Shown: positions 23,609 to 50,600 of the stretch, in pieces
How the letters are laid out: each line of letters opens with the position of its first letter
How positions within the stretch are numbered: the stretch's first letter is position 1
Assembly: GCF_949628265.1 (NCBI RefSeq)
Contig: NC_088788.1
Coordinates: forward strand, 33,280,335 to 33,344,334
Source: Cloeon dipterum
Lineage: Eukaryota > Arthropoda > Insecta > Ephemeroptera > Baetidae
Reading direction: 5' to 3'
DNA: 64,000 nucleotides
Program-made: the position numbers and the translations under genes
Notes under the pieces: generated by a model
The model's input: only the letters and a program-made list of their open reading frames with translations
What the model was told of the DNA's origin: nothing
Databases searched by the model: none

Positions 23609-26600
23609 ATGTCTAGGATGCAGTTGGCCGCCGTTGACAAAAATGACAGTGAGTTTTACTTTTATTTTCCTCTATGGCAAATTTTGACTTTTTAAATATA
23701 TCAATCGAAAGGCGGGGAGAAAAGAATTTGACAGTTAGTTTGGGGTTAATAGTGATTATATTTCATTATTAAATAAAATTCATAACCGAATGATGAAGTG
23801 TGTATTTATGCAAATTATTAAATTGCATGTGTGCACTGAAAACTGGTGTTTTTATCCAGTAATTTGATTGAAATAAATTTTTCAGAGTTACTTAGAAATT
23901 AATTTGGTGAAACAAAAATTTTTATTGTGCAAACAGGCCAAACATTTACTCAGAAAATAGGCACAATACGAAAAACAATTAAACAGGAAATTTTTAAGAA
24001 AGGATATTTTTTGTCATTATATCAAGAAACATTATTTGGAAATTATTGTAAATTTCTTTACGCCCGAACCCATGAACGTATTGTGTGCAAATTTTACTAT
24101 TTGCGATTGTGAAAAATTCATTGCTGCTAATGCTGGCCGTGAAATCTCCTGCTGCGGTATTGTCATGAATAGGTATCCAAGGATATATAGGAATGTATGC
24201 TTCGGAATCAACTAACTTTAATACTGTGCAGGAATTACTTTAGAATCGCGATTTCTCTTCTTCTCTATCAAGTGATTTTCTCTAAAACTGCTAATTACTG
24301 CAGCTTTGAAAAACACATTCTTCGCCAGATGACGCGCCGCCTCCTACATACTTTCATTTAATGTTTCGCAACTCACTCAATAACAAAGGCAGAGTAATTA
24401 CATCTATAACGATTTAGTATCCCGCTGCGTGTTTGATACAAAAGCGTCTCCTAGAAAGAACATGGCGATCGCAGAGAAACACGCGCAGTTTTATACATAT
24501 TTATTTATAAGTTGCGGATATCTTTGGCTGAAACCAGATATTTCGGCCGCTCCACTAGCCGTGTGGGTTTCCCCACACTTAAATTCTCCCATAAATAATT
24601 AAATGAAGCATCAGGTAAAGCCCTGAGATCTAACATCCTTGAGGTCAACGATGAACAAGACGTATAAAAGCACACCGTGCGTTGAAATGGTGAAAATTTG
24701 TGTAGTGTATTTCCTTGAAAAGGATAATTTTACTGAACGGACGATACTAGATTAAATAACTCAAAATCTCAAACCTTTGTTGTAAAAAGGCTTGAATTCG
24801 TCTGGTCAAGACTTAAGTGATCCTTGAAATCTTATCAAACTTGAGATGAAACTTCAAATTTGTACTAGTCGCGAACAAATAAAATAAATAAACTAAAACA
24901 CAAATAAGGGATATTACATTTCTAAATAATACAAAATAATATGTTTAATCTACAGTTAAAATATTAAGGTCCACCTCACTTCAAATCAACAAGTCATAAA
25001 AATTTATTGAGATCAAATAAATAAGAAATGTTTTATTGATTAAATTAAAGCCATCAACAAATATTGCAACTATCCTAAACAACTTTAAATTTGTTCATCC
25101 TAAATGATCATCCCCGATTTAAAACCGAATTCCACAGCACACTTAGCAAGACCCGAAGTACCGTACTTAGTCTTGCACCGATAAGCGTAAACTCTCTCGT
25201 AAATTTTTTGCCGCGGCTTCAATTCGTCTCAGTGTGTGTTTTTTTCATCACACCTCATCACACCTGGCTGCCTGCTCATTCTTTCTCTTGGCGAAAAGGA
25301 ATTGCATTCAACAGTGCAGACCATCCGCCTCGAAGCGAAACGTCGCACTAATTAGCACTCAAGTGAACTGGAGGAAAGTTTGTGCTTTTTCCTCGCGTCA
25401 ACAAGCGCCGTGGTGTCGTCACGCTCTCGATCAATTTTAACCGGAGTCCAGTCTCACATTTCGCCATTTTTCTCTGTCGGTCCTGCGATTTGATTCAAGG
25501 GCACCTTTGAACCTGCTCGCCTAACCTGTTTGCATTAACGAAACTCGTGCATAAAAAACCTTGAGCAGTCAAATGATTTATAGTCCACAGGTGAGACACG
25601 ACGGCCTGGACCGCCAGAGTGATATGAATACATCTGCATTTGATATTTTATGAGGAGACTTAAAAGCTGTCAACTGCAATCGGAACATGCGACATATAGT
25701 CAATCCGAGTATTAGTCTTGTAAAGTGTAAAGGTACCCGCCCAAAATTAAATGTGTCAATTTAGCTCGTTAGTTAACAGGGCTTTTAAATAATGCTAGAT
25801 GGTGTCCAATAAATGAATAATAATAAATTAAATGCTAGCAATTTTTCAACGATTTTTAGCTGAATAACAATTTAGAGATTGTTTTTTAAATACTATATAG
25901 ACGGTTTAATCAATTTTTCAAACTCTATGCGTTTGCGATGCAAATTAAATGGAAATTGTATACATTTCAAAATTATCTCAGTGCACTGATTTTAATTTTA
26001 ATCTCAGTTAAAGCTGCCGTTTAATTTCGATTAGGTGAAACGCAATTTAAAAGATTAAAAAATTCAGACGAGGTACAACTCCATAAAACAATATGATGGA
26101 GAAATAATTTTAATCTCTTCCATATATTGTTTTCTCCTTGCTTGAAAACAGCTTTAAAATTATTTTTCCAGTTTAGATGGATTTGAATGATCTTACATAA
26201 AATCATATGAGGTATTTTTTTAATATAAATCGCGCCGCGCGTGCAACGAGTGTGAAATAGTGCATGCAGATCGAGTGCAGCGAGTGCAGCACAAAGGAGA
26301 AGAATCACGGTAGTCCTATTTCGCTCGCAGCTAACGATAAGGCCGTGGGAGTCTAATTCGCACTCGTCTCCTTTTGTGTTGAACTCGCTGCATTCTGCAC
26401 GCACTATTTCACACACGTTGCACGCGCGGCGCGATTTATAAAAAAAATATAGAGACAGGATTATCGGAATCATCATTATTATATAGTTTTCCTCCCATCG
26501 TTACATGGTTAAAATTTTTGGAATTTTTGTGCAGCTTGATCATCCTCAGAGAGCGTATGTTTCGTTTTTTTTCATGTTTGAAATATTGGAAATTTAATAT

Positions 26601-29600
26601 TTGAATATTATGGTTTGTCTAAATTGGACTACACTGAGTCAAAATTTTTCGGGGTCTTTTGGTTTGACATTTCAGAGGGTCATCATCACATTAAATACAC
26701 GATTGTTACGACTCAATGAAATTTCTTCTGTCTAGACCATGTAAGCCATAACGGAATTTGTCTTTCGATTTCCAAATGGAAGAAAAGTCACTGCAACGCT
26801 TTTCAAATGTTTGCTTTTCATTGGGTTAATATTTTCTCAGCGCCATCAGGAGACGTGCAAGGCATGGCACGTTTCCTGTTCAAAAGTGAATTGACAAGAT
26901 GCAGATAATACACTCGTCATCTCAGTTTGGCAAATAACGTCATTTGTATTTGGAATGCACACTCGCGCGGCACACCTATTTGACCACATGTTGAATCTTA
27001 AAAAGACGCTCAGATTTTTATCGCTTTTCGGAAGAACGAGACATGAATAGCCAAATGACTTTTGGCACTGATTCAAGGCGACGAATTTGCAGTGTGCGGC
27101 TAATAGTGTGCGTGCTCGTTGCGGCGGCTAGAATAGACTCTTCACGTGTGTGGCTCTATTAAGAGCTGCGCGCAAAGTGCGAATTTCACCCATCGCGTCT
27201 AGCAATCGACACCGGGACATACAATGCCAGATTATCAGTGCTTTCCTAATTGGCGCCGCGGACGAGCCTTGAATGAAATACTGCGCTGCACTCTCGATGC
27301 AGTTTCTACTTCCATTGTGTGTTAATTGCTCTGCTTATCTGACGATAATCTCGTGCATAATTTTAATAACGAAAGTGCGGTGTGGGCGCAAGGCTCACGC
27401 ATATTTTCCTCAAAATTAATTCTTATTAACGCAATAAATTAAAACAGTTGCTTTATAATTAAATTTTCCCCTGAAGAGATTCCATTTGCATGTTTCCCAA
27501 TATAAAATTCATTACCTTGCTGGATTCTCGAAGAAGAGCGTGCCAGATTTTAAGAACGACGACTTCAAAGAATGATGCCTAAACAAACAGCCAAACTTAT
27601 CCGTTGAGATACGGATTTAAAAAAATATTTATGTGAAATATGTTTTATTGACTTATTTTGATCGGTTCATCTCTAACATCATAAACATCATTGGAAGAAG
27701 CCCAATCCAAAAACGGACCAGCTTGTGTCTCTGCCTCACAACGGGTCTTTGTTTGAAACGCAAGACATCGTTGAATTCACGCATGCTGATAAGGTGCAAA
27801 TCAGCAAGAAGCAAGTCGGACTGCTGGAAGCAATCTTCCATAATCTGGATGCAGGAGAGTCAAATGTGGGCACATATCAGCCTGCCCCTGCACTCGACTC
27901 CCAAATTCTCACATCGCAACGGCTTGGCGAAAGCAAACTAATTTTTCGCACTGCAGTCCTAATCATGAGCTGGATATTTATCACGGAGGAAGCAAAAATA
28001 AAATTAATGAATGTAATGGCGATGCGAGTTTTAATTTTAATCTATGCTTTGCATTAATCACAGGCGAGGAGAAGAATGTGCAAAGTCATGGCAGAAGTAA
28101 TTTTTTACAAAAGCGAATCCATTTGTCTTGCATGATTGATGAGGCGCGTGTTGGTAAGGTGTGGTGCTGCGATTCCTCACTGTCAGTCGAGTTCAACCGT
28201 AGATGGTAGTGCGGGTGTAGGGTCCATATGGGCCATAGGGGTACGCTCTGTAGGGCAAGGGGCCGGCGTAGGGGTAGTAGTAGGGGTTGTAAGCGTAGGG
28301 CGCGGCCAGGGTGTTTCCTATGCCCAGTCCCAAGCCCAGACCAAACAGCGAACGCTTGTCCTTTTCGCCTCCCTCGAGCTGGTCGTCAACGGGGTTGCAC
28401 AGGGCCACGGCGACGAGGGCCAGGAAAATGATGACCTGCGGAGTGTAATTTAAAAATTATTAGTTCAGAAAGAAATTCACGTTTGAACTCAAACCTTTGC
28501 GTTCATGTTGAGAGTTGTGATTTGTCAGTGCGTTTCTGCTGAACTGATGCCTTCGCCTAGTTTTCTTCGCACTTTTATACCATATCGCCTACCTTGGGGG
28601 AGAAGTTTCGTAAAGTGCACCCGCAGCATTTATTTCTATGATATTTGCGGCTGGCTTCATCGCTTGAATGGGTTTAATTGGCAACAATTAAATGCTAGAA
28701 AACAGAGCTCAAGCATGATATGTGGCTTCTCCTTGTCCTGAAGTGTTGATTAGTTTTGAAAAACTTGATTGACGTAAATTACGATGCAGTGCAAAAGCTA
28801 TTATAAAAAGTGTGCAATAAACTTTGCGTTTTTAACGGGCCCAAAAAATTATTTTACTGTTTGATATGTGTCCAAACAAATAATAGTGTTTTTAATCAGC
28901 TCAGTTGATAAACATTATTTGGTAGAGCGCCAAATAAATTTGTACTCGCAAGCTAAATATTGATTAGTTGAAAGTTATGAAAGAAGAGGACTGCTTAGAC
29001 TATTCAATTAGAGGGAAACAATTTGAATAATTGTATGTTTTATTTTCCAATTTTACCACAGACTGGAGTGCTACTATATAATTCAGGATGATTTATAACT
29101 AAAAGATGATTATTTTGATAAAGTATATAATTAAGTTATTATATGGGTAGTTAAAAAATTGCTCCTGGCGGGATGATTCCGCCGAGATGAGCAAGTGGCG
29201 TAAGCGGTGCTGCGAACTTAGCGATGGGCTGGCCAGTAAGGGGGTGGAATCCGACTCCGTAATGAACGCCAGGTATTCCATATGCTCCAGGGTAGCCCAA
29301 AGCAAAGAGGTTCCTCTTCTGTTTCGTTCCTTCCTCATCAGTAGGAGCAGACATAGCGATGCCAACGATGGCCACAAGGACAAACACTTGCGTGAGCTAA
29401 AATGAAGGACATTATAAGAATGAGAAATTTTTTAAAGAGTCTATCTGCCAGAAAAACTTTAGGTTATACGCGTTATACTACACACATTTTCATCCCATTA
29501 AAAATTAAAATAGTAATAAAAAAGTGTTCTGATGAATTTTACGATACCTTTCTGCACATGTCGGCAGCTGTCTCTTTGCCGGGAGCGTTGAAACTGCTTC

Positions 29601-32600
29601 TTTGTTGACGCGGCTTTTACTTTTATATGCGTCTCACACGTTTTTAAGATTTTATCAGTCCAAGTATTTACTTAATTCAACGAATTATGATTTGCATAAT
29701 TTCCTTGAAGACTTCTGTTAATTGGCAATTACTATAAATTGCTGCTGATAAAGGTGCAATAAATGCAGGCACTTTACCTTCACGGTTCAATTATTTGTTA
29801 ATTGCACCGACTGCATTTTTACTCAATACCTTACAAGCACTTAATATTGTTTTGATATCTTTTTCATGTGAACAACCAAAATTATTTTTATTTTTAAATC
29901 TTTGTTCAAGTTCACGAATATATTATTACATTGGCAAAAAATAGAGTGATTTATATTTACTAAAAACAGTTACTAACCGCATTAAATCCTCAGGCATGTT
30001 TCTTTACAAATGACCTTCCTGAGCAATTGTATCACTTGTGCAAAAAGCTCTGCCTTTTGCTGTCAAAACTTTCTCAAATAACCGCACAAATTTGGGGAGT
30101 ATAAAGCTAAACGAAATTCAGGGAAAGCATCAGTCTTCGTCGAGAAGAGCACTAAACCATTTAGAGCAGTAACATGAACGCCAAGGTTCGTTCTAAAACA
30201 AAAATTTCAAACACCAGTCGTTTCACTAAAGAAACACTATAGGTCTTCATTCTCTTCGCTCTCGTGGCCGTGGCCTGGTGCTCACCGATGGAGCTGGTCA
30301 GGAGGGAGCGCTCCCTCTACACTTACCCTGTGCACCCTGTGGTGCACCGGCCCGTCGTCCAAGTCATCTCTTCGGCTCTTCTAATAGCGAGCAGATTTAA
30401 TGCTTTTCTCACTCATATAATAAAAATTGCTCTCACAAAGTTTTGTTGTTGAAAAAAATTATGGGGACCGCCGTGCAGAGTATGCAACCCGCACGGCGAG
30501 TTACCTTTGCTCCGCCCTCGTCGCTGCAGCCGCGAGTGAAGGGAACCCGCCGTGCAGGTTGCATACTCTGTACGGCGGTCCCCATAAAATCATCCACTAT
30601 TTTGGAGTTTTTTTCTGCATTGAAAGTTGCTGAAATAAATCACACACACACACAAAGCTTGAAAATAATTTTTATTACATTGACCTTTTAAATCAGTTAT
30701 AAAATATGGTCATCACTTTTTGCATTTATAACGTGAAACCCAAAAGGTAGAATAAATTTTTTGATACATAACTTGTGAAAATTGAATGCTTATCTTCCTT
30801 GTTTATTTTCTTATCATATATCTCCAACATTGGATTTTTTAGCCTGCCGCACACATGTTATACGATGCGTTATCATTTAATATTATAAATGGCAATTAAG
30901 ATAACAAAAATTATCACAATAACGATTGCCAAAATGAATGCTGTATGATGAGCAACTGTCAACAATGTTATAAAACCAAATTATTTACAACACTCTAAGG
31001 CAAAATGTTTTCAACAAAATTTAATTTATGCCTGTGCCGAATGAAGCGCCTGCTTAAGACTACGTACGTATACGTGAAGAGAATGACAAGACAGAGAAGG
31101 ATTATTAACCTGGAGCTCACAACGTAGCCGATTGCCTGTGAACAATGCTCCACCGTTTTAAGTCTAAGACATTTATGTTGCGCTATTTGATGAAATAATT
31201 TTGTACTTATTCTTAAATAAATATCGGACATATTTAAGGAAAAGAACAAATAAAACTAATTGGGTTTTTTCGTTTTTTCACGAGCTGCAAACTTTATTTA
31301 TTTTAAAACATTATAAAAAACTTGATTTCACTAATCCTAAGACACATTAAATGTCATACACGTTTCTGTGAAAATTTTCAGTGTGAAATAATGGAGACTA
31401 CACAGAAACTGATAAAGAAAATAGACAGTCAGAGAGTAAAAGGGCTTAATTAATTATTTTATTAGTTGTCTATAAGATTAATCAATTAATATTATGTCAT
31501 TAAAATGCATTAGAAATAACACAGAATTGCGAGAATCAGGAGGAAAAATGCCAAAAACTTCAGCAGATAATGGACCGGTATGGTAACTTCCATATTCAAA
31601 AAGTCCTCAATGCTTACTGGCTGACCGACAGCGACGGTGCGTGGTTTAAAAGTGGCGGCTCCGTTTGCTGCAGACGTCGGCGTCGGGGTGCTCGAGTTTG
31701 CCTGCGAGGTCGGGGTGCCAGGATTTGTCTGCACTGGAGGTGGCGGCGTCGGATCAAATTTTCGGATCTTCCTCACGTTACCCGGCTCGTTTTGCCTGGT
31801 CTGAGTGCCCGCGACAAAGTCTACGTCGTAATGATTGCCGTTGAACGAAAATGTGTAGTTTTGCGAGCCGCTGCTGTAGGCGGTGTCCATTGCGACTTGG
31901 TGATTGGGATCAAAGTCTTGCCAAGCTTTAAATATTTTTTAAATGATTTTTTTTAGCCTTCGTAAACGAAAGAATAATTTTACTCACTTTTGTTTCTCCT
32001 TTCGAACTGCCATCTCGGGCCTGTGAGTGCAGGGTTGTGCTGGGGAGTCGCATTCATGATTGGAGCAACAGGCTGTAAATTAAAAGGCGAGGGCTGGCCG
32101 TTCCCGGTGGGGCTTGTCGGAAACTGAAAATTGGTAGACAAATTCTAAACAAAATTAGTTCAGTTACTTATTCCATGCACTAAATTACCCTACTTCTAAC
32201 GCCGTCTGTCATTGCAGCAAATTTAGGCGACGATGATCTCTACGATGTTGGGAGTTGAGTCTGTAATGAAACACAAGGAAACCAGTTAGCTGCTTTTAAA
32301 GGTTCTGTATGAGCGAAAGTCTTATTATATCAGCAGTGGCGCTTCAGTACAGCTTCGTTAGTAGCGTTAGTCAAAGACTTTTTTGTTAGTTGAAACACAT
32401 GGTGAAACACCTAAAATGCCGGGAGGATAACTAAATATCTGGCAAAATTTTAAACGGACATGAATTCTTTTAATTTTTCCTGTTTATTCTAGACGAAAAA
32501 TTGATCATTTCATCCTGAACTTATTTTAAATCCATTTATAGCGTGTCAAGTAAATAATTCATTCTGACTGTTGCAGCAGAATAATTTTTATTTGTGAAAT

Positions 32601-35600
32601 CATGGAAATTTATCTTTATCAATGCGATATTTTTAGCGCTGCTGCTGTCCTTTAAAATTTTAAAGCAGGGAAGAAGAACAAAAATGTCTCAATTTGTGAG
32701 GAATTTTAATTATAAATATTTTTATTACTTCATTTTATAAAGATAAACATTTTATTTCATCCAGGATTCAAATTCAAAGCAAATAACACTGATGGACCAT
32801 ATTTTTTTAATACTTTGAGCTGATAACACATGCCAAAATCATAGTCATAAGAGTGATGATCAAATTTCTCACAGAGGTGGTCACATTCCAATTCATAAAA
32901 TCAGACAAGTAGAGTTGGCCTCCACCATTGACGTTTCCACGGTTAATATTTTGGTTTGCGCGGGCTGTCGGAGCAGCGGCTACTGGTGCTAGAGCTTGAG
33001 GTGCGACTTGCATCATGGGCTGAGGAGGTGGATATTGAGGTGTTTGCTGCTGGGCAGCTGAAGCAAAGGCTGACATCATGGGGTTCAGATTCATAGCCGA
33101 CAAAATCGGTTGAGAAGGGATGACTGGGACTGGGATGAGCTCCCGCTTGATTTTCCGCACTTTCGTCTGGTCCGACCTTTTCGTTTGCTTCATTTTTTCC
33201 AGGTCAATGTCGTACAGCTCGTTGTTTATTGTCAGTTTGCATTTTTGAGCCTTTGCCTGCTTTTGATCTTCCAAATAGGTTTGCGTCTGTGGCTCGAACG
33301 GATAATAAACTGTAAAATAATCGAAAGAAAGTTGAGGCATAATTGATTACAATACAAATATGGCGATTCAATACAGATGAGGACGGAATTGATAATAATG
33401 ATCAGATGTCATCTTTAAAAATCAGGAGCTCACTGTCGGAGACCAGAGCGTAAAAAATTAAAACTGACAATTAAGTGTCAAAAATAGAGTACACGCTTGC
33501 TACTGTTGAGCTCGATTTAAAGCAAGCTCTCAATGAAATTGAATAAATAGGAAATGAAAGGAATTGTTAGAAAATATAATGATAATGATTTTTAGCATTA
33601 AGGAAAATTTGCCAAAATATGCTTACCTCCTTTCTTTCCTTCATACAGCCACTTAGGCTTTGAAGCCATTATATTGCCGTTATGTGTCAAGTCTAGAATG
33701 AAGGCAAAATTGAAATTCTTTAAGCCTGCACTCGCCCGCTATAAAACTGGGGAAAACCCAAATCAGCGCAGCTAGTTGGGAGACAGTGTTCTTTCAATGT
33801 GATCCGTGAGCTTCGTGGTTTCGGCCGGCTTCATATACTCTTATTAAGAAGAGCTAAAGTCTTGATTGTAAAAAAGTCTTCCTTTATAGAGCTGAAGCCG
33901 CGCATCGCTCTGTAATGTGTGCGATAGTCTTTTTACGTCAACCATTGCAAAAAGAGATACGCGTACGAGACAAAATATGCCTTAAATTTTAAATTAGTCA
34001 CGATTATTAACAAATATAAAACAATCTTTGCTTGCTGAAAATATAAGCGTTGAAGTTCTTGATTTAGTTTTTTGTTTTTAAATAAGATTGAATGTTTTTC
34101 AAATTGAGGTTGAAAATTTAAGTGTAAAAATTATCTTGGATTAACCACCAATTAAATATACCATGTGACACACTAGGATTACCCTCGCTTATTGTTCCCA
34201 AAAATGCTATCCTATTTAGATGTTTTCAAAGAGCTTTCGCGATTGTTTTAGCACTTCATTTGATGGCCATAAAATTATTACCAGGTTGCAAAATAAATTA
34301 AGCCATTAAACCCACTATTTTTAAATGAAATAAATTGAAGCTGCCACTCTTTCACATATGATATTTTAAATATCTGTTTGAGCAGCGTTTAACAATCAGC
34401 GATAAAATGATTCAATAACTTTTGAAATAATGATTATGCGCGCTCTTCTATAGAAGCGAAAATGAAATTTTCCCCAGTGTGTCTATAAATCACACCTAGC
34501 GCAACCACTTTATTTATGACTGAACTGCAATTAAAGCTTTCAAAATCTAGGCGTTTAATTGCACTCTTTGCACTATAAAAAGCCAGCACCAAAAAGCGGA
34601 GGGCATCAGTTTAGCTCCTCCAGCCGAACAGTCCGCAACAATGAACGCCAAGGTACAGTTTTACAGCGCACCACTTGCTACCATCAAATTCACCCTTTCA
34701 AAATCCAGATCGTCGTCTTCCTGGCCGTGGTGGCCGTCGCCGTCTGCTCCCCCGCCGAGGAGACAACCAAAGACAAGCGCGCCCTAGTCGGTCTTGCTTA
34801 CCCCGGCGCCGCCGTCGCCGCTCCCCTGGCCTACCCGTACGGAGCAGCCCTCCACCCCTACAGCGCCTACCCCTACAACACCTATCCTTACGCTAGCCTG
34901 GCCTACCCTTACGCCGGTCTGCCTCGACTTCCTCTGATCAACAGCTACGCGCCTGCTGCCACCATTCTCGGCTAGATCCCTGCTGTTTGTAAATAATTAG
35001 GAAAATAAATATAGACTCATCAAATCAACTATCTATTTTTTATCTGACTATTTTTCAACTCAAGGTTGGCTTGACTCGTCAAATAATTAAATTAATATGC
35101 ATATTATATATTGATTTATTACAAAAAGAGGTTTGTTTTTTTAGACGCATACATTTTACATTTACGTGCGAGCCACTTTACAATTTTTGCGAAAATGTTA
35201 TGACGAAACAACTAAATATCTCGTATGGCTTTCTTTATCCATTCAATTTGTGGTGGCATCGTATGTCCAATTATTCTAATTTTATCACTTTTGTTTGCAA
35301 AGTCTTAGTATTGACTTGGCGCTTGCGTGCAAAGTCAACAACAAATGGTTCGCCGTTGAATATAAAGTAACTTCTACCAGTTTTATTTTCAAAGTCTTTA
35401 GTCAGCTGTGATTGGATCAGCGGCTCATGCTCTATCCAAACTGTAAAATTAATTAAATTAAAGTTTTTTTCGCTTCAACTTTCGCTTTTGATTTACCTCC
35501 TTTTTCCTTGTAATACCATTTCTCCGAGGAAGAGCAGTCCTGCAATAATGGCAGAGCAGCTACACCTGTGCTCGCACTCAATGGCACAGGTTGATGAGAA

Positions 35601-38600
35601 GTTGGAAAATCGTGGGGTGGAGGGCTAATAGGTTCTCGAATAACATTCATGACCTTCAGTCTAGTCTGCTTCATATCTTTTAGATTGATTATGCAATGAT
35701 CAAAATCGATATTAGTCTTGACAGGTTCCTCTTTCCCCTCGATAAAGCATTTTTCCAGCTCCTTTTGGAGCATTTCGTTGTACTTTGTCCTCACTGCAAA
35801 TAGGATAAAGTATCAAAAGTTGATTTTAATGTATTTATGTTTGAATAACCTCCGTTTTCATCCTCGAAATACCACACGTAAGAACTGTCAGGTGTATTAA
35901 TATTATTAGTATTTGGGTCTGCTACTGTGGCTGTAGCGGGTGCGACAACGTTGTTTTGAGATTTGGTTGGAATAACTACAATTGGGGTGGCCGCGGCCAC
36001 TGCTACCACCTGTGGTGCAACGTGCACTGTTACTGGAGGAGTTTGTATCTGTGCAATCACACTAGGTGCAGCCGTAGTAGCGAAAGGCGAAAGCATGGGA
36101 TTCGAAGTCACTGTCGTCAAAATCGGTTGAGAAGGGCTGATCTCCCGCTTGATTTTCCTCACCCTCGTCGGGTCCGACCTTTTCGTTTGTTTCATTTTTT
36201 CAAGGTCGATGTCGTAAAGTTCGTTGTTTATTGTGAGTTTGCATTTTTGTGCATTTGCCTGCTTTTTGCTTTCCAAAAAGGCTTGCGTCCGAGGCTCAAA
36301 CGGGTACCAAGCTGAAAATTAAAAAAATGTTAACGAAAGTCTAACAGTTGAGCAGTTTAAAATGCTTACTATCTTTATTTCCTGCATAAAACCATTTTGG
36401 TGATGACGAGGCCATTATGTTTTCTAACCGAACTGCGAACTAAATTGTGTTTTAAATTCTTCTTAAAGCAAAAAACATTGGTGTTGATCTCACTTGCGTC
36501 ACATGATTACTGAAAACCACATATCAGCCAGCGCTGATAACTAATAAAGAGAGGAATGCTTTTCTTTCACGCCGCATGCGTGAATTGGATTGCTATACAT
36601 TAATGTTTAAGTCTAAATTTTCTTAAAGTCTTACTTTCAAAGATTGCACAACTACTGCTAATAAATGAGACAGACAGCGAAAAGAATCACGTCACGTCGG
36701 GAAATATTAATGCATTTGTATATTTTAAAAAAATAATTGATTGGTAAATAAAATCACTTATTGGAGAAATTTTTTCCAAGGTGTAGCCCATAATGAAATA
36801 TCATTCAAAAATTTACAATAGAAGAGTGAAAAAATTATAAAAAAATATTTGTGTTGAAAATATCCTAATTAAAATCGTACAAGCTATTCTACCGGTCTAG
36901 TCTTTATTCAATAAATTCTTTTGCGGGTGTAAAATTAGAATTACTTGAATGTATATAACAATATTTTTTAAGATTAAAAATAGCTGAAAACCCATTCAAA
37001 AATCATGCGGGATAACCAGTTTTTATAAAATTTAAATTCATGCCAGAGTGCATTGTATTTGACGCAAATCATAAATTGAATTTATTTTTTAATTGTTCAA
37101 CATATAATTAAAGGGCCCAAACCACAAAAGAAAGTTTTCTCACACCAAATATGTATCACTTTAATAATCAATAAATCACTCTGAGCAATGCCACTCTATT
37201 TACGACTTACTGGAATAGGAGCTTTCAAAATAGAGCTAGACTGTTTAATTGCACTCTTTGCACTATAAAAAGCCAGCACCAAAAAGCGGAGGGCATCAGT
37301 TTAGCTCCTCCAGCCGAAGAGTCCGCAACAATGAACGCCAAGGTACAGTTTTACAGCGCATCACTTCCTTCCATCAAATTCACCCTTTCAAAATCCAGAT
37401 CGTCGTCTTCCTGGCCGTGGTGGCCGTCGCCGTCTGCTCCCCCGCCGAGGAGACAACCAAAGACAAGCGCGCCCTCGTCAGTCTCGCTTACCCCGGCGCC
37501 GCCGTCGCCGCTCCCCTGGCCTACCCGTACGGAGCAGCCCTCCACCCCTACAGCGCCTACCCCTACAACACCTACCCTTACGCTAACCTTGCCTACCCCT
37601 ACGCCGGTCTGTCTCGACTTCCTCTGGTCCACAGCTATACGCGCCTGCTGCCACCATTCTCGGCTAGATATTCAAGTCCTACTGTAAATGTCGTCCGTTT
37701 GTAAATGATTTTATGGGATAAATAAATATGAGAATCAATATGAATGAAATTAAATTTTATCCTATGAAAACGTTCAGGGCGTAATAAATTTCATAATGCT
37801 TATAAATAAGGTATTATTTTTCTTTATTTGACATACAGATAATTTATAATTCATAACAGTCATTTGTAAGTGGTGCATTTAAGCAGTAAATTTTAATATC
37901 AAAGTCGGCATTTGTATTTTTCATCTGTAATGCCGTATTCACACCAAAACAAAAAGCAGCCTAAACAAATTTAGAATTAATAGTTTTTTTTTAAATAGAA
38001 AATTTCTAAATTCTAGGCAGCAAAAATATGTTAGGAAACCATTGCATATACAAACGTGCATATTTTAAAGTACAGAACTGAACATTTATTTTTTTAAAAA
38101 GCAGTTATCATGTACACTAATTGATATCCGCCTCATAGTCCACACCCTCAATCGGGTGAGTTTATCAAGGATCCATGGTGCGTAATATTAATTAACCCAT
38201 CATGGTTTGAGAAAACGAATAAAAGTTCTGCACTCTCTTTGTTAGGACCATTTGTGGAAGAAGTCTTCACAAAGTCTCGCTTGAACTTCCACTAGTTTTG
38301 ATTTAACGAATTAAGATCACGGGGAGAAGGACTTATGAAATTGAAATTGGAGTAAAGCAGCAGCAGGTTCTCGAAAATTTTTTGCCTCCGTTTTTCCCAT
38401 ATTAAAGTTTCCCTCATTTCTTTAAAATTGACTGTGTAGCAATCTAAGTCCATTTGGATTACAGTTTCCTCTTTTCCTTCGATGTAACAGCGTTCCAGTT
38501 GCATTTGATTATGTTTTAGCTAAATTTATTAACTAGGAATCAATTCAATGCAAAATAAAATGTTAAAATTTCCTTACCTCCGTAAGCGTCCTCATAATAC

Positions 38601-41600
38601 CAAACTTACGAGGGTTGGGGCGTCTCGCCAACTAGAGTTTTCGTTGAATGTAGATTTCTATCAGTCAACTTTTTTGGCTCTCGAATAACTAATTTTGGAG
38701 AATATGTTTGGTCACCATACTTCGTTTGCTTCATTTCTTTCATATCGACTGATAAACAATCAGAACCGATGAAAATGGCAGCAAATAAATATCCAGATGA
38801 TCTACAAGATTCCAGCTTCTCTTGGTTCTCCTCTGTATACTTTATTTTCGGTGCGAAAAATTATTATTTAGTTATGTATTGACCAAATCAAATGGAAAGG
38901 AATTTACCTCCGTCATCATCAATAAAATACCAGACATGCGGCACATCATTCGGCAAATCAAGCGTGTTTCCAGGTGTCGTGGCGAGCTCAGCTTCTTTAA
39001 TTGATTGAGAACTAACGGAGGCGATCAAACTCTTGATCTTGCTTTTAGCAAAGTCAGAAAGGGCGGCAGGGCTAGAATACAAGGTGTCTTTTTTAGGATC
39101 AAACTGCCTATATGGTTTCTTGTTTCCGGACATGGCAAACCAAGATTTAGGTATGATACCTGAAGTTTATGTCGTACAATATCCCATCTCGAGAGAATGT
39201 GCATCTTTCAATACTGTATTGAAATCTGCTTTCAAGTAGCTCTTGCAGGTTATCCTCGAATTTCTGCCAATCTAGGACGCAAAAATTAACCAACCAAAAT
39301 TACTAGAAATAACACGAACGTTAAACTAATTTATTTAGCAAACAACACAGCTATTTCTTTTTGTTTCTTAGTTTAGTGCGGCCAGAAATTGCTTTTTAAA
39401 GTATATTAGTAATCCGTTTAAACCTTTCTTTGATATTTATGTTCTTTTATATTAATTGGCTGTTAATAAATCAGTTGAATTATTTTTTTTACAAACCAAC
39501 GCATCATAATGCAAAAAGGTTCTTCTCTATTAAATGCCTACTTCCTTTATTATTTAAACATTGCCACTTTTGCTGCGGCGTTTTTTTTGGCCGGTGAAAC
39601 TGGAATTATCGGTGCGCTTGTCATTGACGTCGTCGTTGAAGGTGACGGTGATTTGTTCGCTGGCTTTGCTTCTACTTTCTGGGTCGGTGGTACAGGCAAT
39701 CTAGTTGAATTAGATTTTTGAAGAGCAACTTGCTTTATTTGTCAGCTGCTAAGGTGTTGTCTTTCTATTCTTAACCTTTTCGCGAGTCACTCTTCTAACT
39801 TTTGAAGTGTCCCTTTGATTTATTTGCAGCATGCGCTCAAAATCGATCATGTATTTTTAATTTTTTTACGTCAAATGACATCTTTTTTTGCTTGGATTTG
39901 TATGCTGCCTCCAATTTATGTTGAATGCTCGCGTCATATGGGTACAAATCTGTGAGATAAAACATTTCAGTTAATAAACAAATCAATCATATCGCAAATC
40001 ATAAATGGATAAAATTCAGCACTATCAAAAAAGTCTTACTCTCTCTTAAGCCACTGTAGCTCCAAATTTTTTGGAGGCGCTGACGTTCCCTTCTGAAACA
40101 AGTAACTTCATTTACTGATGAAATGAAGAAGTATTTTTGAAACAATTTCAATAATTTAGATTGTCTCTACATATAGGATCCTTTGTGGAAGTTTCCAGAT
40201 GTTTTCTCAAACGGTAAAAATGGTTTCATTATTTCCTTATTTTTGTAATTTTTGCTCAGCGTTTGAGTAGCTTTCATGTTTTCATGCACACTTCAGAGTC
40301 TTATTTGAGCCAAATACTAATAAATGAGAAATCAAAGAAATAAAATATATTGAGGAAACCGGTATAAACAAGGTTAAAAGAAATGTGAATATTCACTTTT
40401 CACTTTCAAATGCCTTGCATGTTTAAGGCCAAAAAGAATTGATCAAACAGGGTGTACAACTATTGGTTTAAATTAATTTGTATGGTGAAAATATATACTA
40501 ACTTTCGTTTGGGAGGACGAGGGATAGCCACTGTAGCTCATGCTGCTCGCGGAACAGACTGCTAGCGAAAAGTCTTGGTGCAGAATGTCTATCCGTTCGT
40601 TGCGTATGCTCTAATTATATATTTGCGAGTAGACTTTTCAAAGTCTTAATATAAGTAGAGAGTCTTTGATATATTCGTTTAAAAAAATTAAAGTTTATAG
40701 AAGTGCGAATGTTGAAATTACCAGCTTCATTTTCATGGCAAAAAGACCATACAAATTTTTGTCTTTAACCAATTATCAAAAAAGGTGCATTATTTATATT
40801 TCAATTTTTTTTAATAATCTCAAAAAATAGCTGAAAACCCATTAAAAATCATGCGGGATAACCAGTTTTTATAAAATTTAAATTCATGCCAGAGTGCATT
40901 GTATTTGACGCAAATCATAAATTGAATTTATTTTTTAATTGTTCAACATATAATTAAAGGGCCCAAACCACAAAAGAAAGTTTTCTCACACCAAATATGT
41001 ATCACTGTAATAATCAATAAATCACTCTGAGCAATACCACTCGATTTACGACTTACTGGAATAAGAGCTTTCAAAATAGAGCTAGACTGTTTAATTGCAC
41101 TCTTTGCACTATAAAAAGCCAGCACCAAAAAGCGGAGGGCATCAGTTTAGCTCCTCCAGCCGAACAGTCCGCAACAATGAACGCCAAGGTAGAGTTTTAC
41201 AGCGCACCCTTCTGCAATCAAATTCACGCTTTCAAAATCCAGATCGTCGTCTTCCTGGCCGTGGTGGCCGTCGCCGTCTGCTCCCCCGCCGAGGAGACAA
41301 CCAAAGACAAGCGCGCCCTCGTCGGTCTTGCTTACCCCGGCGCCGCCGTCGCCGCTCCCCTGGCCTACCCGTACGGAGCAGCCCTCCACCCATACAGCGC
41401 CTACCCTTACAACACCTACCCTTACGCTAACCTTGCCTACCCATACGCCGGTCTGTCTCGACTTCCTCTGATCAACAGCTACGCGACTGCCACCACCATT
41501 CTCGGCTAGATATTCAAGTCTACTGTAAATGTCGTCCGTTTGTAAATGAATATATAGAATAAATTACGATGAGAATTAATTTGAATTTTTATAGATGTTT

Positions 41601-44600
41601 ATTCTCAGTTACATACAATATACATATATATCAATAAGACAAGTCAGAAGTAAAAAAATTGAGAAAAGGCACCATGCCTGGCAACCAACTTGATAAAACC
41701 TTGCAATGTTGGAATGGGCCCAAACTAGACGCTCAAGACTTTAAAAATTTGCGAACATATACGCACTGCAAAGCGATGGGAACTGAACTGTTGAACAAGA
41801 TTCAATTCTATGTGGCATTTCATAGATTTAATTAAATTAATTTCATTCTAGGAAAATATTCAGGGCGTAATAAATTTCATAATGCATAAATTAGGCTACG
41901 TTTCTTTATTTGTCATACAGAAAATTCAAAACAGTCATTTATAAGTGATACAATTAAGCAGAAAATATCAAAGTCAGCATTTGCATTTTATCTATAATAC
42001 CGTCTTAAAACCTAAATAAAAAGTAGCAAGAACAATTTTTTTAATCAACAATGTGTTTAATATAAGAAATTTCTAAATTCTAGGCAGCAAAAGTGTGTTA
42101 AAGAACCATATTGCATACAAACGTGCACATTATAAACACAGGGGAACAATTATTTCTGATGAAAATGCGGTTAACATGTACACTAATCGAAATCTGCCTC
42201 ATAGTCCATACCCTCAATTGGGTCAATTTTTCCAGGATCCATGCATGGTGCGTAATAAACCCATCATGGTAGTAAATAATGGTTTGAGAAAACTAATAAA
42301 AGTTCTGTACTTTCTTTGTAGGACCATTTCGTTTTAGGAGAAGTTTTCGCAAAGGATTTTTCTTTTTAGTTCTGATTTGACGAATTAAGATCACGGGGAG
42401 AAGGAGTCCAACTTGAAAGCAGCAGGTTCACGAAAAACTTTCGCCTCTGTTTTGTCCCATATTAAAGTTTGTTTCATTTCTTTAAAATTGACTGTGTAGC
42501 TATCAAAGTTAATTTGGATTACAGTTTTCTCTTTCCCTTCGATGTAACAGCTTTCCAGTTGCTTTTGATGATTTTTGTCGTACTTTGTTTTAGCTAAATT
42601 TATAAAGAAGGAATAAATTCAATGCAAAATAAAATGTTAAAATTTCCTTACCTCTGTAAGCGTCCTCATAATACCAAACGTAAGAGGGTTGGGGCGTCTC
42701 GCCAACAAGAGTTTTCGTTGAATGTAGATCTCTATCAGTCAACTTTTTTGGCTCTCGAATAACTAATTTTGGAGAATATGTTTGGTCACCATACTTCGTT
42801 TGCTTCATTTCTTTCATGTCGACTGATAAACAATCAGAACCGATGAAAATGGCAGCAAATAAATATCCAGATGATCTATAAGATTCCAGCTTCTTTTGGT
42901 TGTACTCTGCATACTCTATTTTCGCTGCCAAATATTATTATTTAGGTAATATTGACCAAACCAAGTGGATAGGAATTTACCTCCGTCATCATCAATATAA
43001 TACCAGACGTGCGGCGCATCATCCGGCAAATCAACCGTGTTTCCAGGTGGCGTGGCGGGCCTGGCTTCTTCAATTGAGGGAGAACTGGAAGAGGTGAACA
43101 CGCTCTTGATTTTGCTTTTAGCAGAGTCATATAGGGCAACAGCGCTATTAATAAAGGTGTCATTTTTAGGTTCGATCCTCTTGATGTCTCTTGTTTCCGG
43201 ATACGGCAAACGCGATGTTTGGGTCTTATTTGTGAAGTTAATGTCGTACAAATTCCCATCGCGAGAGAAAGTGTATGTTTCATCGATATTGTCTTGAAAT
43301 CTGCTTTCAAGCAGCACTTGCAGGTTATCCTCGAATTTCTGCCAATCTAGAATACAAAAAATTAATTTAATATAATTATTTCAAGAAAAAAACGAACGTT
43401 AAAATTATTTAGCGCTGCACAAAACAGCCCCATATTTATATCTGTTTCTTAGCTCCGTGCAGTGAGAAATTGTTTTTACAGTATTTTAGTTATTTATTTC
43501 CTCTTAACCTTTCTTCGTTATTCATGTGTGTTCTTTAAAAATAGTTTGCTGTTAACAAGTATCAATTAAAATATTTTTTTTCACAAACGAACAAAACATA
43601 ATGCAAAAATTATCTTCCTAGTGAAATGCTTACCTCCTTTATTATCTAGCCATTGCCACTTTGGCTGCGGCGTTTTTTGGTCCGATGTAAGTGGAACTAT
43701 CGGTGGCTTCATTGTCGTCGTCGTTGAAGGTGACGGTGATTTGTTCGCTGGCTTTGCTTCTACTTTCTGGGTCGGTGGTACAAGCAAACTAGTTGACTTA
43801 GATACTAGAGGAGCAGTTTGCTTATTCGTCGGCTGCCGAGGTGTTGTTTTCTTAACCTTTTCGCGAGTCACTCTTCTAACTTTTGAAGTGTCCCTTTGAT
43901 TTATCTGCAGCATTTGCTTAAAATCGATCATGTATGTTTCATTTTTTACGTCAAATGACATCTTTTTTTGCTTGGATTTGTATGCTGCCTCCAACTTCTC
44001 TTGCATGCTCGCGTCATATGGGTACGAATCTGCGAGATGAAACAGTTCAGTTAATAAACAACGAATCGTATCGCAACTCATATTAAAAGATAAAAAGCAC
44101 TATCAAAAAAGTCTTACTCCCACTGAAGCCAGTGTAGCTCCATATCACATTTTTTGGAGGCGGTGACGTCCCCTTCTGAAACAATTCATTGTATTTACCA
44201 ATAAAATGACGAAATATTTTGGAAACAATTTCAATTATTTAAATTATGTCCGCACAGGAACTTGTGTGGACGTTTCCAGATATTTTCTCAAATGATGAAA
44301 ATTGCGCAGCGTTTGAGTAGTTTTTATGTTTTTATACACACTATAGAGTCATTTGAGCCAATCATTAATAAATGAGAGAACAAAGAAACAATATATGGGT
44401 TGAGGAAACTAGTATATTGCAATATTATGGTTAAAATTAAAACATGGTTAGAAGAGATTGTTATTTTAACTTTTTTCATTTTAAAATGTTTTTTACATGT
44501 TTAAGACCAAAATGAATTTGTAAAAAGTGGGTTTAATATTAGTTTGTAGGGTGAAAGAAAATATATACTCACTTTCGTTTGGGAAGACCAGGGATAGCCA

Positions 44601-47600
44601 CTGTAGCTCATATATGCTGCTCGCGGGACACACTGCTAGCGAAAAGTCTTGTTGCAGAATGTCTAACCGTTCGTTGCGTATGCTCTCATTATATCTTGGC
44701 GCTTAGACTTTTCAAAGTCTAATATTAGTAGAAAGTCTATGGAATGTTCGCTTGAAAAACACATTTAAGCTGGTAGAAGTGCTAATGTTGAAATTACTAA
44801 CTTAAATTTCATGGCAAAAACTTTTTGTCTTTAAAAATCTATCCAAAGCTTAAACAATTTATATTTCAAAATTAATTTTTAAATAAATTATATTTGCGTG
44901 TTTGTCTTGTAAATGCTGAGATTTAAATTGACGAGATATTTAATTTTCATTTACCAAAACTCAAAAACGAAATTTTTAGTAACCATTTTAGGAATTAAAT
45001 TATTTGACTCTACTAAATGCGAGTTTACTTAAAGGAATGAAATTAGTAATCTTTTTTCATTGTACTGTGCCTTAAAAATGCTTTTATTTAATTAAAAAAT
45101 TGACAATAGCCAAAACAGAAAATTTACAGGGATACATAAATAGTCGAGGGGATGGACGCGATGGCAGTGATGCGGGGTAGGCGCTTAGCCGAGGTAGGCG
45201 GCGGGCCTGGTGGTGGCGACTAGGGGGCTGGCGTATGCGGGGGTAGCGTATGCAGGGGTGGCGAGGGCAGCGGCTCCCCAAGGCGCGAGAGGAGCGACGG
45301 CAGGGGCCCAGGGCGACGCCAGCCTAGAGGGCAGAGCGGTGTACGGGTTGTAGCCCAGGCCGTTGAGGCCGTAAGGGTTGTAGCTGGTGTAGGGGTTGTA
45401 AGCGTTGTAGGGATAGCCGAGGGCGCCAGGGTAGCCGAAGCCGAAGAGGTCGCGCTTCTGCTGCTTGCCGTCCTCCATAGCGGCGGCGGCCAGGGCGACC
45501 AGCGCCAGAAAAACAACAACCTGTTTAAGATTTAAAGGGTTATTTTGTGTCCTTTTCGCAGGAGTAAAATTTTAATAAATGTATTTTGTGTTGGAAATTC
45601 TTTGATTTTTTTAGAGAAAAATTTAAAAAGCTAATATGTGTTAATTTTAAAATTTAAAATTTATGATTCAGTTTAGACGAAAATTAATTTTATCTTTGGA
45701 CTCTCTCTTTTCATTGAAATTTTTTTCATTAAATAAGTAAATAAAAAATGTTTCCGTTGTGCAGATGTTTAGAAATTTTGTATTAAACACTGAAACATAC
45801 CTTTGCGTTCATGGTGGTAGCTGACTTGATGATTATCCGTCTGCTGCTAGACTGATGGTCTAACAACAAGTTCGGAAGCTTTTTATACGCGAAAAAGTCT
45901 CGATCGTGTCTGCCCGAAATCGTGAACGCGTGGCAGCAGCCCCAACAATTCTCATGACTGAATTTTATTACGGTGTATCATTAGTTTATGATGGAGGACG
46001 CAACTACGCCGCCGATCAATGATTTTCTAACTGAAACCCATATTGAGCGAGCATTCGGTGCTCGCGGGGCAGTGTAGAAAAGCGAGATTGCGCCACTCCG
46101 TGTGCGAGTGTTGCGGGGAAGCGCGCGACTCGTGCGAAATTTATTAGTGTATCCGTGTGTTCCACCGCAGAAGCAATAATATATAATTCCTAGAGAAAAT
46201 ACACGCTGCGTTTTACCTTGTTTCTCTTCAAGGCTGATCAGGTTTTACAAAATAATCTCCGAAGGCGGATTCTCTTTTTGCAGACATTGAGAAGTGCTGC
46301 TCGTTTCCCGCACGAACATGCAAATTGTGCGGAGAGCGGAAAGTGAAACGACATATATAGAGAAGGTTTGCGGCTCCGTCGTGTTTTGGCTCCGAGTTAA
46401 ACTGATTAAGCGCCTAGTTAAAAATTCGGCCTGATTAGCATTCGCATCACGAGATATCGTGGATGCCTTGTTAATGTAAATAAATTGTCTTTCGAAACGC
46501 GGTCTTGTGTCATTACTATTAAACATATACTCTCAAAACTGTGCTTTTCATGCAGGATATAATTTACAGTTGTTAATTATTTTAGCACGAATTTATATTT
46601 AATCTGTTACGTCTAGTAGCCAAATAATTTCACCCTTCTAAAAGCTCCTACCTTCGATTTGATTTACAGACGATGGAAACTCTTCCGACACCACGAACAA
46701 TAACAACAATAACTGCAACAACAACCGCGATGGTCAAGTTCCTGAAAGTATCAAGAAACGATCTTCAAAGCTAGATGCCGACACCTTTTTCCAAGAGGCG
46801 ATGGCGACCCCCGCGGACTGCGGATCTCCCATGGAGCTGCCACCGTGGTTCGACCTTGAGAAATTTCAAAGGTACAATACACGTGACACGCGCGATTTTA
46901 AGGTTAAGTCTTTTTAGAAATTTAAAGTGGTTTGTGCGAAATGATTGACTCACAAAAATGGTCAAATGTTTTCTTTTTTTTTAAATTTCCACTAAAATTT
47001 TATTGAACTTGAATTTATTGGGAAGACATCATGTGTAAAATCCAGCATGTTAACTAATTTTTCAATCAAATTATAGATATTATATCTGATAATAACTATA
47101 AGCATTTTTTCACTCTTAAACTTCTTGTCAAAACCTCTTCCTTTGTGGCTCAATAACTTCAAGACAATCTAAATATCTATAATCAACGACCCTTTTTACA
47201 ACAATTTTTGCGACCACTCTAATCTTCCATTGCCGCATTTTATACCTTATTAGTTGCCACATTTATAAAAAAAGGTTTTGATAGATTAAATAATTTTTGA
47301 CATTGCAGGGGTCAGGATTTCATGAAGCGGAACATTTTCACCTTTCTCTACACAAAACTTTCGGGCCTGGTGTGTCTGCTCGCGGTGCCGAGCATCCTCA
47401 GGGTATTGTGCTTTACGTCGCAATCAGGAGAGCCGTGCTCTGCGTTCAATAGATACTTCTCCACCCTGAGCCACATGATGGAGTGGTACAACGGAGACCT
47501 GCTCGAGCCGGGATCTAAGTAAATATTCGCAACCCTTTTAGTTAGAAATATAATAATTAAAAATTAACTCGCAGGGCCTATGAGTCACTGAAGCTGATCC

Positions 47601-50600
47601 GCAGCAGACACGCAGCAGCGGCCAAACGGTCGCGCAAAGCCGGACTCGGTCTAATGTCGCAGTTTGACATGATCGTCACGCAGTTCGGCTTTATGGGTTT
47701 CGCCATCCTGCATCCCAACTTTTTCGCCCTGCACAGAGAGAAGCGCGAGGCCTGGGAAGGTGTCACTCACTTCTGGAGAACCGTTGGCTATCTGCTCGGG
47801 ATCGATGACAGGTGAGCAGCATGCACAGACCAAACACTCTTGGCGCCTGTTCAACTCCTATACGAACTATGGCGCGGCATAAATTACGCTTGTTATAGAA
47901 CGTGATTTAGTAGACGAACGCATTGTCAGGTTCAAAGTGCGTGCCCAACACACGTCCGGCTATATAAATCAAAGGAAATGGACAAGGAGTGCCAGTCAAT
48001 TGTACATGATAGAATGATCGCGCGATGTGTGTCATTCTTTGATCATTTTTTTAATATGCAATTTATACTTTTTTAATTTTTATTTCACTGTATAAAAATT
48101 TTCAAACCAATTTTCACCTCCCCTTAAAAATTGTATCCAAAGCAGACAACGATAAATATGATGGAAACATTAATTGAAACGTTTTTCCGGCATAATTAGG
48201 CCAAACTTGTTATAGTAGTTAAAAACCACTGAGTGCCAATCAGTTCTAGAGGAAATAAAATAAATTAAAATTGAATAAAAAGGAAATAAATGAAGTTCAT
48301 ACATCAACGTGGAAGAATTCCGTTTTGCAATTACTATTGGTATACAATGAAGGCGATTAAATTGCAATGAGATACTAAAATTCAAGTTCAGAGAAAAAAT
48401 CATTTATTAGCCTGAAATCTTAGTTCCAAATGACATTTTTGTCTAATTTCAATTTTTGTTTAAATCAAGCTCTCGCATACATAAGATTGAATCGTCTGGC
48501 AGTCCAAGTCGTACCACTTTCCCCCGTCAGTCTTCGCACTTCAAATTTTAATTATTATAATAATTTTATTTAATATATTAAATAAATCAAAATAAATGTC
48601 TGCACAAGATTACGCACATCACTATCACGCATTGCTCGACTGTTGGAGCTTGTGGTTGTAATGGGGCCCACCAGGAATAGGTGTCGTTTGCGCCGTTGAT
48701 CCACACGTACTTCTGGTCAGCTCTCCCGAGGTTGTCCTTCCCAATCCAAATCCATGCTCCGGAATTGTCTTTACGCCATAATTTAAGAAAAAGGTGCATC
48801 GAGTCTTTTGGATCGAAATATTGTTACATGTTTGGTCCAAAAATTGCATCCCGCATGTCCGTTCCAATTCAGTTTCGAAAATGATCAAATCCATTCCCTT
48901 GCTTTGACATTCTTTTCTCGAGTCGGCGTATGAGGCCTGTTGAGCGGTTTCAACTTTACAAACAAAAATTAATGAACTTAATTTGCTTACTAATTTCGTT
49001 CCAATAGAGTATCTCGAAGAAGGATAATCTGAAGAATACATAATTTAATCAATAGTTTTTTTTTTAAATAATTATTTTTTGTTTGACACTCGATTAAACG
49101 TCATTTTTTAAAATGATACCAGCACATGTAGGTATCCGGCTTGTGGTTGCAGTTGTTGTAGTAGTGGTCCTCATGGTAGTGGTTGTTGTAGTTGGTGCGG
49201 TGGTTGTAGTTGTTGTCGTAGTAGTCTTCGTGGTAGTAGTTGTGGGTGGTGTGGTGGTGGTGGTAGTTGTTCTAGAGGTTGATGTTGTTGCAGCAGCAGT
49301 TGTTGTAATAGTCTTGGTTGTTGTTGTTGTGGCACGTGGTGTTGTTGAAGTGGACGTTGATGTTACTTTTTCAGAGGTAGGAAATAGTGGTGTGGTAATT
49401 AAGGTGGTTGTGGTTGTTGTAGCGGTGGTTGGTGATTTTGTGGTGGTGCTTGTTGTGGTTGTTGACGTCATCGTCGTGGAGAGGAGAGCTGTCGAAGTTA
49501 CCACAGATTCAGTGGCTGCTTCTGTTTCTGCTGGAAATTAAAAATAATTGATGTAAGCTGCAGGAAAATTCTGTATTTAATAATATCCCTCAAACTACAC
49601 ACAAAAACCCCATTATTTTATACCTTTTGGCAGCGTAGATGAAATATAATTTTCTATTGGTAACTCCGCAGCAGTAGTTATCTCTTCGCTTGCAGCTACG
49701 AGTAATAATTTTTGTAAATTTTCCATTTTTGTTTCTGTCTGGGACGAAATTCTGTGGGCTTACCTGTTATTAGGGTTGCGGATATTTTTTTCACTGTTAA
49801 GGTTTATCTTTTTGTAAGGCAAACTAAAAAATGTAAGTGCACAACCTGTTGAATCTGATGCGTTCACTATTGTAGGAAGAGTTGTTTTTGCCACTTTATT
49901 AGGGAGAGAACATTTGGTGTTTCCACAACATTTTATAATTGTCTGAAGTTTTTTCTGACGGAGGTCCACAAACAGTTTTTTATTCACATTTGTTAGCTGC
50001 ATTAGTGCTTGCATTGAGCCTTTAAATAATTTGATAAATTACTTTGTATTTCTTAAAAAAATCGGAGAAGCGTACTTTTAAAAAAAACCGCACGTGATAT
50101 TAAAGGCTCCTGAATTGAACTTTTGTCGTTATGTACTTTGAAGTTTGAAATCTTTTGTTGGCATTCAATTATCAGTAATCAGCAAGAATTTGATTTCAAT
50201 TTAACAAGGAGTTTTTCTCAACAATCTGTCCCAAAGTCCCAAAACAGTTTGCTTTAATTATAAAACGGAGAAAAAGCTCAATTCAGTTGGGCCTTTAATT
50301 AAAACTTGTTCCCAGGAATCCCAGAATGAAAGGTAAAACTAAATTATTTTGGTTCAGATGATAATAAATTAATTTGAAAGTTAAATGTAATGTTCTAAAA
50401 AAATACCAGAGTGAATGAAAGTTGTAAAAAAATGTATTGATTTTTACCACACTAGAAATTATCTTTTTAAAATCTAAACATTGAAATAATGATTTTTTTT
50501 AAATCAGCTAGGAGAATACGTCTCTTCTAGTTCGTACTATTTTTATGTTCAAAATGTTGACGGTGCAACTGATCGTAGTTTTTTTTTCATAAATTCCAGT

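Follow-up and report, generated by a model that had tools for sequence, protein, structure and literature searches.

A window of 64,000 nucleotides on contig C3 of the 190-Mb genome of the mayfly Cloeon dipterum contains an array of genes for proteins built from WWE domains (31510..44611). The array, delineated by eye and set out as spliced models, consists of four intact genes, here called W1, W2, W3 and W5, and one decayed copy, all on the minus strand. Together the intact genes encode nine WWE domains and no enzyme domain. Five of the nine domains keep all four residues that correspond to the ADP-ribose binding site of the ubiquitin ligase RNF146, and the two single-domain proteins end in a hydrophobic tail. 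The explanation that we favor, while giving it a little less than an even chance, is that the array encodes RING-less, RNF146-type readers of poly(ADP-ribose) (PAR) which act as competitors or adaptors beside ligases that carry both RING and WWE, with W1 and W2 tail-anchored and W3 and W5 soluble.

The introns of the four intact genes are all of the GT...AG type and the reading frames are open. W1 (32212-31510; exons 32212-32189, 32123-31988 and 31925-31510) encodes 191 residues and W2 (33669-32807; exons 33669-33627 and 33309-32807) encodes 181, in both cases one WWE domain followed by the hydrophobic C-terminal tail. W3 (36415-35271; exons 36415-36370, 36311-35850, 35793-35497 and 35440-35271) encodes 324 residues with three WWE domains, and W5 (44611-42391; exons 44611-44573, 44175-44118, 44029-43634, 43346-42981, 42924-42652 and 42593-42391) 444 residues with four. 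The W3 model is the same as NCBI LOC135940962 of C. dipterum over 324 of 324 residues; that entry is itself a prediction, on a contig as long as C3, which backs the model and does not add a second genome. W1 has counterparts of 190 and 197 residues (P0002 and P0003) in another C. dipterum assembly, with the tail kept. Second models were seen for W1 and W3, and the models of W2 and W5 rest on the window. The 197-residue isoform of W1 carries seven extra residues, encoded directly upstream of exon 2 (32144-32124, minus strand), and apparently uses an alternative acceptor.

All four spliced proteins scored above the curated cut-off of 21.1 bits for the Pfam WWE family (PF02825), with 50.3 bits for W1, 55.2 for W2, 108.8 for W3 and 125.5 for W5. 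No enzyme domain exceeded its Pfam cut-off in any of the four, the remaining matches above cut-off being WWE subfamilies, and Pfam gave no RING match. A previous sequence-only reading of this DNA had described four intact genes and one decayed copy on the minus strand, encoding nine intact WWE domains in stand-alone proteins without a catalytic domain. The spliced models, tblastn and the Pfam search bear out this description. The same reading had pointed to a Pfam profile search and to structure prediction as checks, and both agreed with it. In a fold comparison that covered predicted models of W3 and of a W1 allele, the top 24 PDB matches of the former and the top 23 of the latter were all WWE-bearing structures, among them TRIP12, RNF146, HUWE1, PARP14, ZAP and DTX1. 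In the W3 model the first and third WWE domains are confident and the second is poor; the linkers were modeled at low confidence, as for a disordered chain.

Conservation of the binding site was judged on an alignment with RNF146, at the equivalents of aromatic residue 107, Tyr144, Gln153 and Arg163. Roles of a conserved Gln, Trp/Tyr, Tyr and Arg in WWE domains are described in PMC11269756, and according to PMC9367489 the RNF146 substitutions Y107A, Y144A or R163A block recruitment to PAR. All four residues are kept in the domains of W1 (with Phe at 107) and W2, in the first domain of W3 and in the first and second of W5. W2 and the first domain of W3 have the equivalents of Tyr107, Tyr144, Gln153 and Arg163, and none of the nine domains has lost Gln153. 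The second domain of W3 has Cys at 144 and Met at 163, its third Phe and Lys at these positions, and the third domain of W5 Leu and Lys; the fourth domain of W5 keeps Tyr at 144 and has Ala at 163. The residue pattern makes PAR reading likely for five of the nine domains. The earlier proposal that the array encodes PAR readers is thus likely to be right for these five; the other four are without the equivalent of Tyr144 and/or Arg163.

The sequence-only reading had also suggested that the proteins with three or four WWE domains are multivalent readers. Three and four WWE domains are present, but this picture is weakened because W3 has one complete site among its three domains and W5 two among its four. 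The same pattern weakens an alternative in which the proteins are multivalent scaffolds, several WWE domains gripping one PAR chain and building assemblies for stress, DNA-damage or antiviral responses. Such scaffolds would make sense of the three and four WWE stretches of W3 and W5 and of the two complete sites in W5, and there is a possible parallel in a three-WWE protein of carp that is virus-induced and whose overexpression lessens cell damage by virus, as PMC13030082 reports. They are harder to reconcile with W1 and W2, each of which couples one domain to a hydrophobic tail, and with contact residues kept in only one of three and two of four domains, and we consider the scaffold explanation unlikely.

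The tails of W1 and W2 were missed in the sequence-only reading. In both proteins the best 19-residue Kyte-Doolittle mean sits at the tail (2.44 for W1 and 1.84 for W2), and the hydrophobic stretch ends 0 and 4 residues before the C-terminus, respectively; the best stretch in W5 has a mean of 1.21. An alignment of the final 40 residues of the two proteins scores 42; among 20000 full shuffles a single one did as well, and among 20000 in which the first 17 and last 23 residues were kept apart three did. The AlphaFold model of the W1 allele shows the WWE domain and a helix at 170-189. Given their related hydrophobic C-termini, W1 and W2 are probably membrane-anchored. With the C-terminal hydrophobic segment of both and the terminal helix in the W1-allele model, they resemble tail-anchored membrane proteins, of which we know of none that carries a PAR-reading WWE domain.

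A link to RNF146 is suggested by the W2 sequence and by gene structure. Searched against solved structures, the N-terminal 82 residues of W2 gave RNF146 (3v3l) with an E value of 1.7e-8 and TRIP12 with 0.13. Every WWE domain of the array is split after the first strand by a phase-1 intron. On contig C2, near 10045138, lies a Cloeon RNF146-like gene that clusters with human RNF146 in the domain tree (91/79). It too has a phase-1 intron in its WWE domain, and the codon split there shares its alignment column with the split codon of nine of nine array domains; the stretch before the split is one residue longer in eight of these nine than in Cloeon RNF146. No intron interrupts the site in TRIP12, HUWE1, the first WWE of Deltex, a WWE place at C1:27349006 or the remaining translated RNF146-like frames, all of which read through it. 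The shared intron site, which the sequence-only reading had also missed, is a sign of descent and not a defining trait; with the structure match of W2 it makes descent from RNF146 a likelihood, one that the domain tree described below does not support.

Compared with RNF146 (Iduna), whose WWE is the closest solved one to W2, whose site residues recur in W2 and the first domain of W3, and whose Cloeon gene has its split codon in the same column, the array proteins differ in having no RING and hence no ligase function, in having up to four WWE domains, in the tails of W1 and W2 and in that the domain tree does not place them within RNF146. Deltex (DTX1/2/4) likewise has more than one WWE per chain, and the DTX1 and Drosophila Deltex WWE structures were among the fold matches, but the WWE domains of the array stand apart on low-confidence linkers and Pfam found no ligase, RING or Deltex C-terminal domain. 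PARP13/ZAP shares the presence of several WWE domains, and its ZnF5-WWE1-WWE2 structures were matched, but the array proteins have no zinc fingers or PARP domain by Pfam and their nearest solved sequences are RNF146 and TRIP12. The carp protein, called ZAP-like, has three WWE domains and no zinc fingers according to PMC13030082; its likeness to the array proteins is one of domain content. The sequence-only reading had noted that WWE domains mostly occur singly, with two in Deltex; PARP13/ZAP and the carp protein show that Deltex is not the only protein with more than one.

Multi-WWE proteins can arise because the phase-1 intron cuts each WWE: an internal exon then holds the rest of one domain and the start of the next between phase-1 boundaries, so that it can be duplicated in frame. 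The exons between WWE domains are indeed symmetric and all multiples of three (462, 297, 396, 366 and 273 nucleotides), and the multi-WWE proteins may have arisen by in-frame duplication of such exons. On a larger scale, the decayed copy (about 40541-38300, minus strand) matches the 444-residue W5 protein piecewise by tblastn, with several frame changes and in-frame stops, and its WWE match in the genome-wide search described below holds two stops. The decayed and W5 units are 79% identical in DNA over the 3.2 kb of the WWE part and 94% over 0.8 kb around a neighboring small gene, so the two represent a block duplication of about 4 kb that included the small gene. W2 is a close relative of the N-terminal part of W3. 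The ratio of nonsynonymous to synonymous divergence (dN/dS) between them is 0.25 over 122 codons (dS 0.95); restricted to the 73 WWE codons it is 0.21. Both values are Nei-Gojobori point estimates without error.

These data also bear on the possibility that the WWE domains have become protein-protein modules, with ADP-ribose binding incidental or lost and with partners unrelated to ADP-ribosylation. The loss of the Tyr144 and/or Arg163 equivalent in four of nine domains and the apparently disordered linkers would fit such a role. The site is kept, however, in the first WWE of all four proteins, Gln153 is present throughout, and the dN/dS of 0.21-0.25 between W2 and W3 argues against it as well, so that we rate this possibility as quite improbable. 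Neutral tandem duplication of a spare WWE gene, now decaying and without present function, is very unlikely: it would explain the decayed copy and the duplication of the unit as a block with its small genes, but it is weakened by the dN/dS of 0.25 over 122 codons, by four intact frames with clean splice sites, and by the preservation of W1 and its tail in another assembly and the relatedness of the W1 and W2 tails.

If the array proteins are RING-less PAR readers, as we favor, their complete WWE domains would attach to PAR chains produced by enzymes of the tankyrase or PARP1 type. Because they have no RING, they would hold or shield the PAR-tagged proteins from RING-WWE ligases, with no handover to ubiquitin. 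In this way they would compete with the many RING-WWE ligases of the genome or serve as adaptors beside them. W1 and W2 would act at a membrane, held there by the tail anchor and facing the cytosol, and W3 and W5 would be soluble and offer one and two complete sites, respectively.

Several observations weigh against this explanation. Nearly half of the domains (four of nine) are without the equivalent of Tyr144 and/or Arg163. A stretch in a W3 linker has a hydropathy mean of 1.94 and is as hydrophobic as the W2 tail, and hydropathy alone is therefore weak evidence for the latter. The predicted models draw on 8 aligned sequences, and their overall confidence is low, with a mean pLDDT of 57 for W3 and 63 for the W1 allele. 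The first WWE of W5 is nearest to TRIP12 (E value 0.00055), followed by DTX1 (0.0032), HUWE1 (0.038) and RNF146 (0.061). Competition with RING-WWE ligases is something that we infer. Finally, the domain tree (22 rows and 71 columns, from an alignment of 24 domains from which the Cloeon Deltex and HUWE1 exon fragments, which are without the C-terminal third, were dropped) does not support a position of the array within RNF146: a branch with 94/97 separates the RNF146 rows from the array and other WWE domains, and array plus RNF146 against the rest reached only 53/92. The array did not form one group in the best tree, and a single group was not rejected (p-AU 0.417). On account of the tree we call the array RNF146-type and not a member of RNF146.

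The genome around the array is rich in potential ligases of this kind. A genome-wide WWE search gave 36 places, seven of them in the array (six intact domains and the decayed copy); it missed three of the nine intact array domains, the second and third of W3 and the third of W5. Of the 36, 23 are RNF146-like, with eight at C3 11.58-11.83 Mb, five at C2 10.03-10.05 Mb, eight at C5 2.55-2.68 Mb and one each at C1 24.848 Mb and C5 29.025 Mb. The remaining 13 comprise, besides the array, TRIP12 (one), Deltex (three), HUWE1 (one) and one place without a family label. When the RNF146-like places were translated, with C5:2577078 left out, a RING-type Cys/His pattern was found beside 21 of 22, the exception being C3:11826726. 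Five translated C5 copies are identical in frame, as are two others to each other, and all five non-canonical copies that were aligned differ from RNF146 at 144 and/or 163.

Enzymes of the tankyrase type are also numerous. A search for PARP catalytic domains gave 24 places, among them C3:7.54-7.565 Mb, C3:8.56 Mb, C1:8.32 Mb and C1:24.788 Mb. At these loci 14 different versions of the Cys-His-Cys-Cys zinc-site pattern of tankyrases were seen, some of them in a tandem cluster on C3, and one version resembles tankyrase proper; several of the frames are cut by stops or introns, and the counts are of places and patterns, not of intact genes. Two tankyrase-type frames compared with the PDB gave 27 matches each; in either set 26 entries are named tankyrase and the last is named only poly(ADP-ribose) polymerase. 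The tankyrase-like frame at C1:24.788 Mb lies about 60 kb from the RNF146-like place at C1:24.848 Mb. A frame upstream of the catalytic exon (L029, 1932-2297, minus strand; also in L037) encodes a hydrophobic segment with basic residues after it, and possibly belongs to a membrane-anchored writer. Drosophila has one tankyrase and one RNF146. The numbers of RNF146-like and tankyrase-like places are a context that the sequence-only reading had missed.

A wider interpretation, which we regard as doubtful, is that C. dipterum has expanded a whole ADP-ribose-dependent ubiquitin circuit, with many writers of the tankyrase type, of which one may be membrane-anchored, about two dozen RNF146-like RING-WWE ligases, and a novel class of RING-less WWE proteins, including two membrane-anchored ones, that protect or recruit PAR-tagged proteins at membranes. 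If true, writers, ligases and readers would have multiplied together in tandem in this lineage, as might be expected of an arms race, with viruses for instance. Proteins that are naturally RING-less and tail-anchored or multi-WWE would provide a test of PAR readers uncoupled from ubiquitin ligase activity, and could be natural counterparts of the WWE probes used for imaging PAR. With its many RNF146-like and tankyrase-like places, the mayfly is a candidate system for the diversification of the ADP-ribose-dependent ubiquitin pathway.

Relatives of the array proteins were sought in a protein database that includes the mayflies Neocloeon triangulifer and Ephemera danica. At E <= 0.01, searches with W3 (1683 candidates) and with a W1/W2 profile (857 candidates) matched C. 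dipterum only. The array had been described as lineage-specific, and these searches agree with this within their sensitivity and for the queries used, which did not include W5. In the literature, WWE domains, RNF146 and multi-WWE proteins are known already, the last including the carp three-WWE protein without zinc fingers in PMC13030082. Within the literature searched, we met no counterpart of an array whose RNF146-type WWE proteins have no RING and in two cases a likely tail anchor, and it looks new to us. Literature searches for WWE domains with Ephemeroptera, and for tankyrase and RNF146 with lineage-specific and insects, found nothing in a search from which subscription papers mostly fall out, and the term WWE is absent from the main text of the C. 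dipterum genome paper (PMC7250882).

The whole array lies antisense in intron 1 of a plus-strand gene resembling mpaB/rubber oxygenase, of which the Neocloeon triangulifer orthologue (P0005) is 75% identical. The first coding exon (23609..23648, 40 bases) encodes the N-terminus of P0005 and is followed by the donor GTGAGT in a fitting phase. Intron 1 (23649..46669) spans about 23 kb, the second coding exon (46670..46871) is defined by sequence, frames, P0004 and P0005, and the later coding exons, which follow P0004 and P0005, start from about 47309, the last ending at 52534. Searched with the first 14 Neocloeon residues, exon 1 scored 34; the runner-up on the plus strand and the top site on the minus strand each scored 25. 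As a counterpoint, P0004, the gene as annotated in the other C. dipterum assembly, begins with a Met within exon 2 and is without exon 1, so that exon 1 rests on the orthologue and the splice signals and not on a transcript. Location of the array within one intron, as proposed from the sequence alone, is well supported by the orthologue N-terminus, donor and phase. P0004 and the W1 counterpart, both recorded with a longest contig of 1,249,536 bases, are presumably on the same contig of the other assembly. A Trio-like minus-strand gene was rejected as host, as its own last exon ends near 53002-53005 (by eye). Antisense in a later host intron, at 48625-49537 on the minus strand, are a frame that looks lectin-like by eye and a long Thr-rich frame; Pfam gave no match for the frame at 48625-49044.

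Between the WWE genes and in the same intron lie small plus-strand genes, probably for secreted Ala/Tyr/Pro-rich peptides, at 34482-34977, 37168-37669 and 41014-41511. Similar small frames occur near 28.2, 29.2 and 45.4 kb on the minus strand and near 30.3 kb on the plus strand. DNA identity among the three plus-strand copies is 92-94%, compared with 79% for the adjoining WWE parts.

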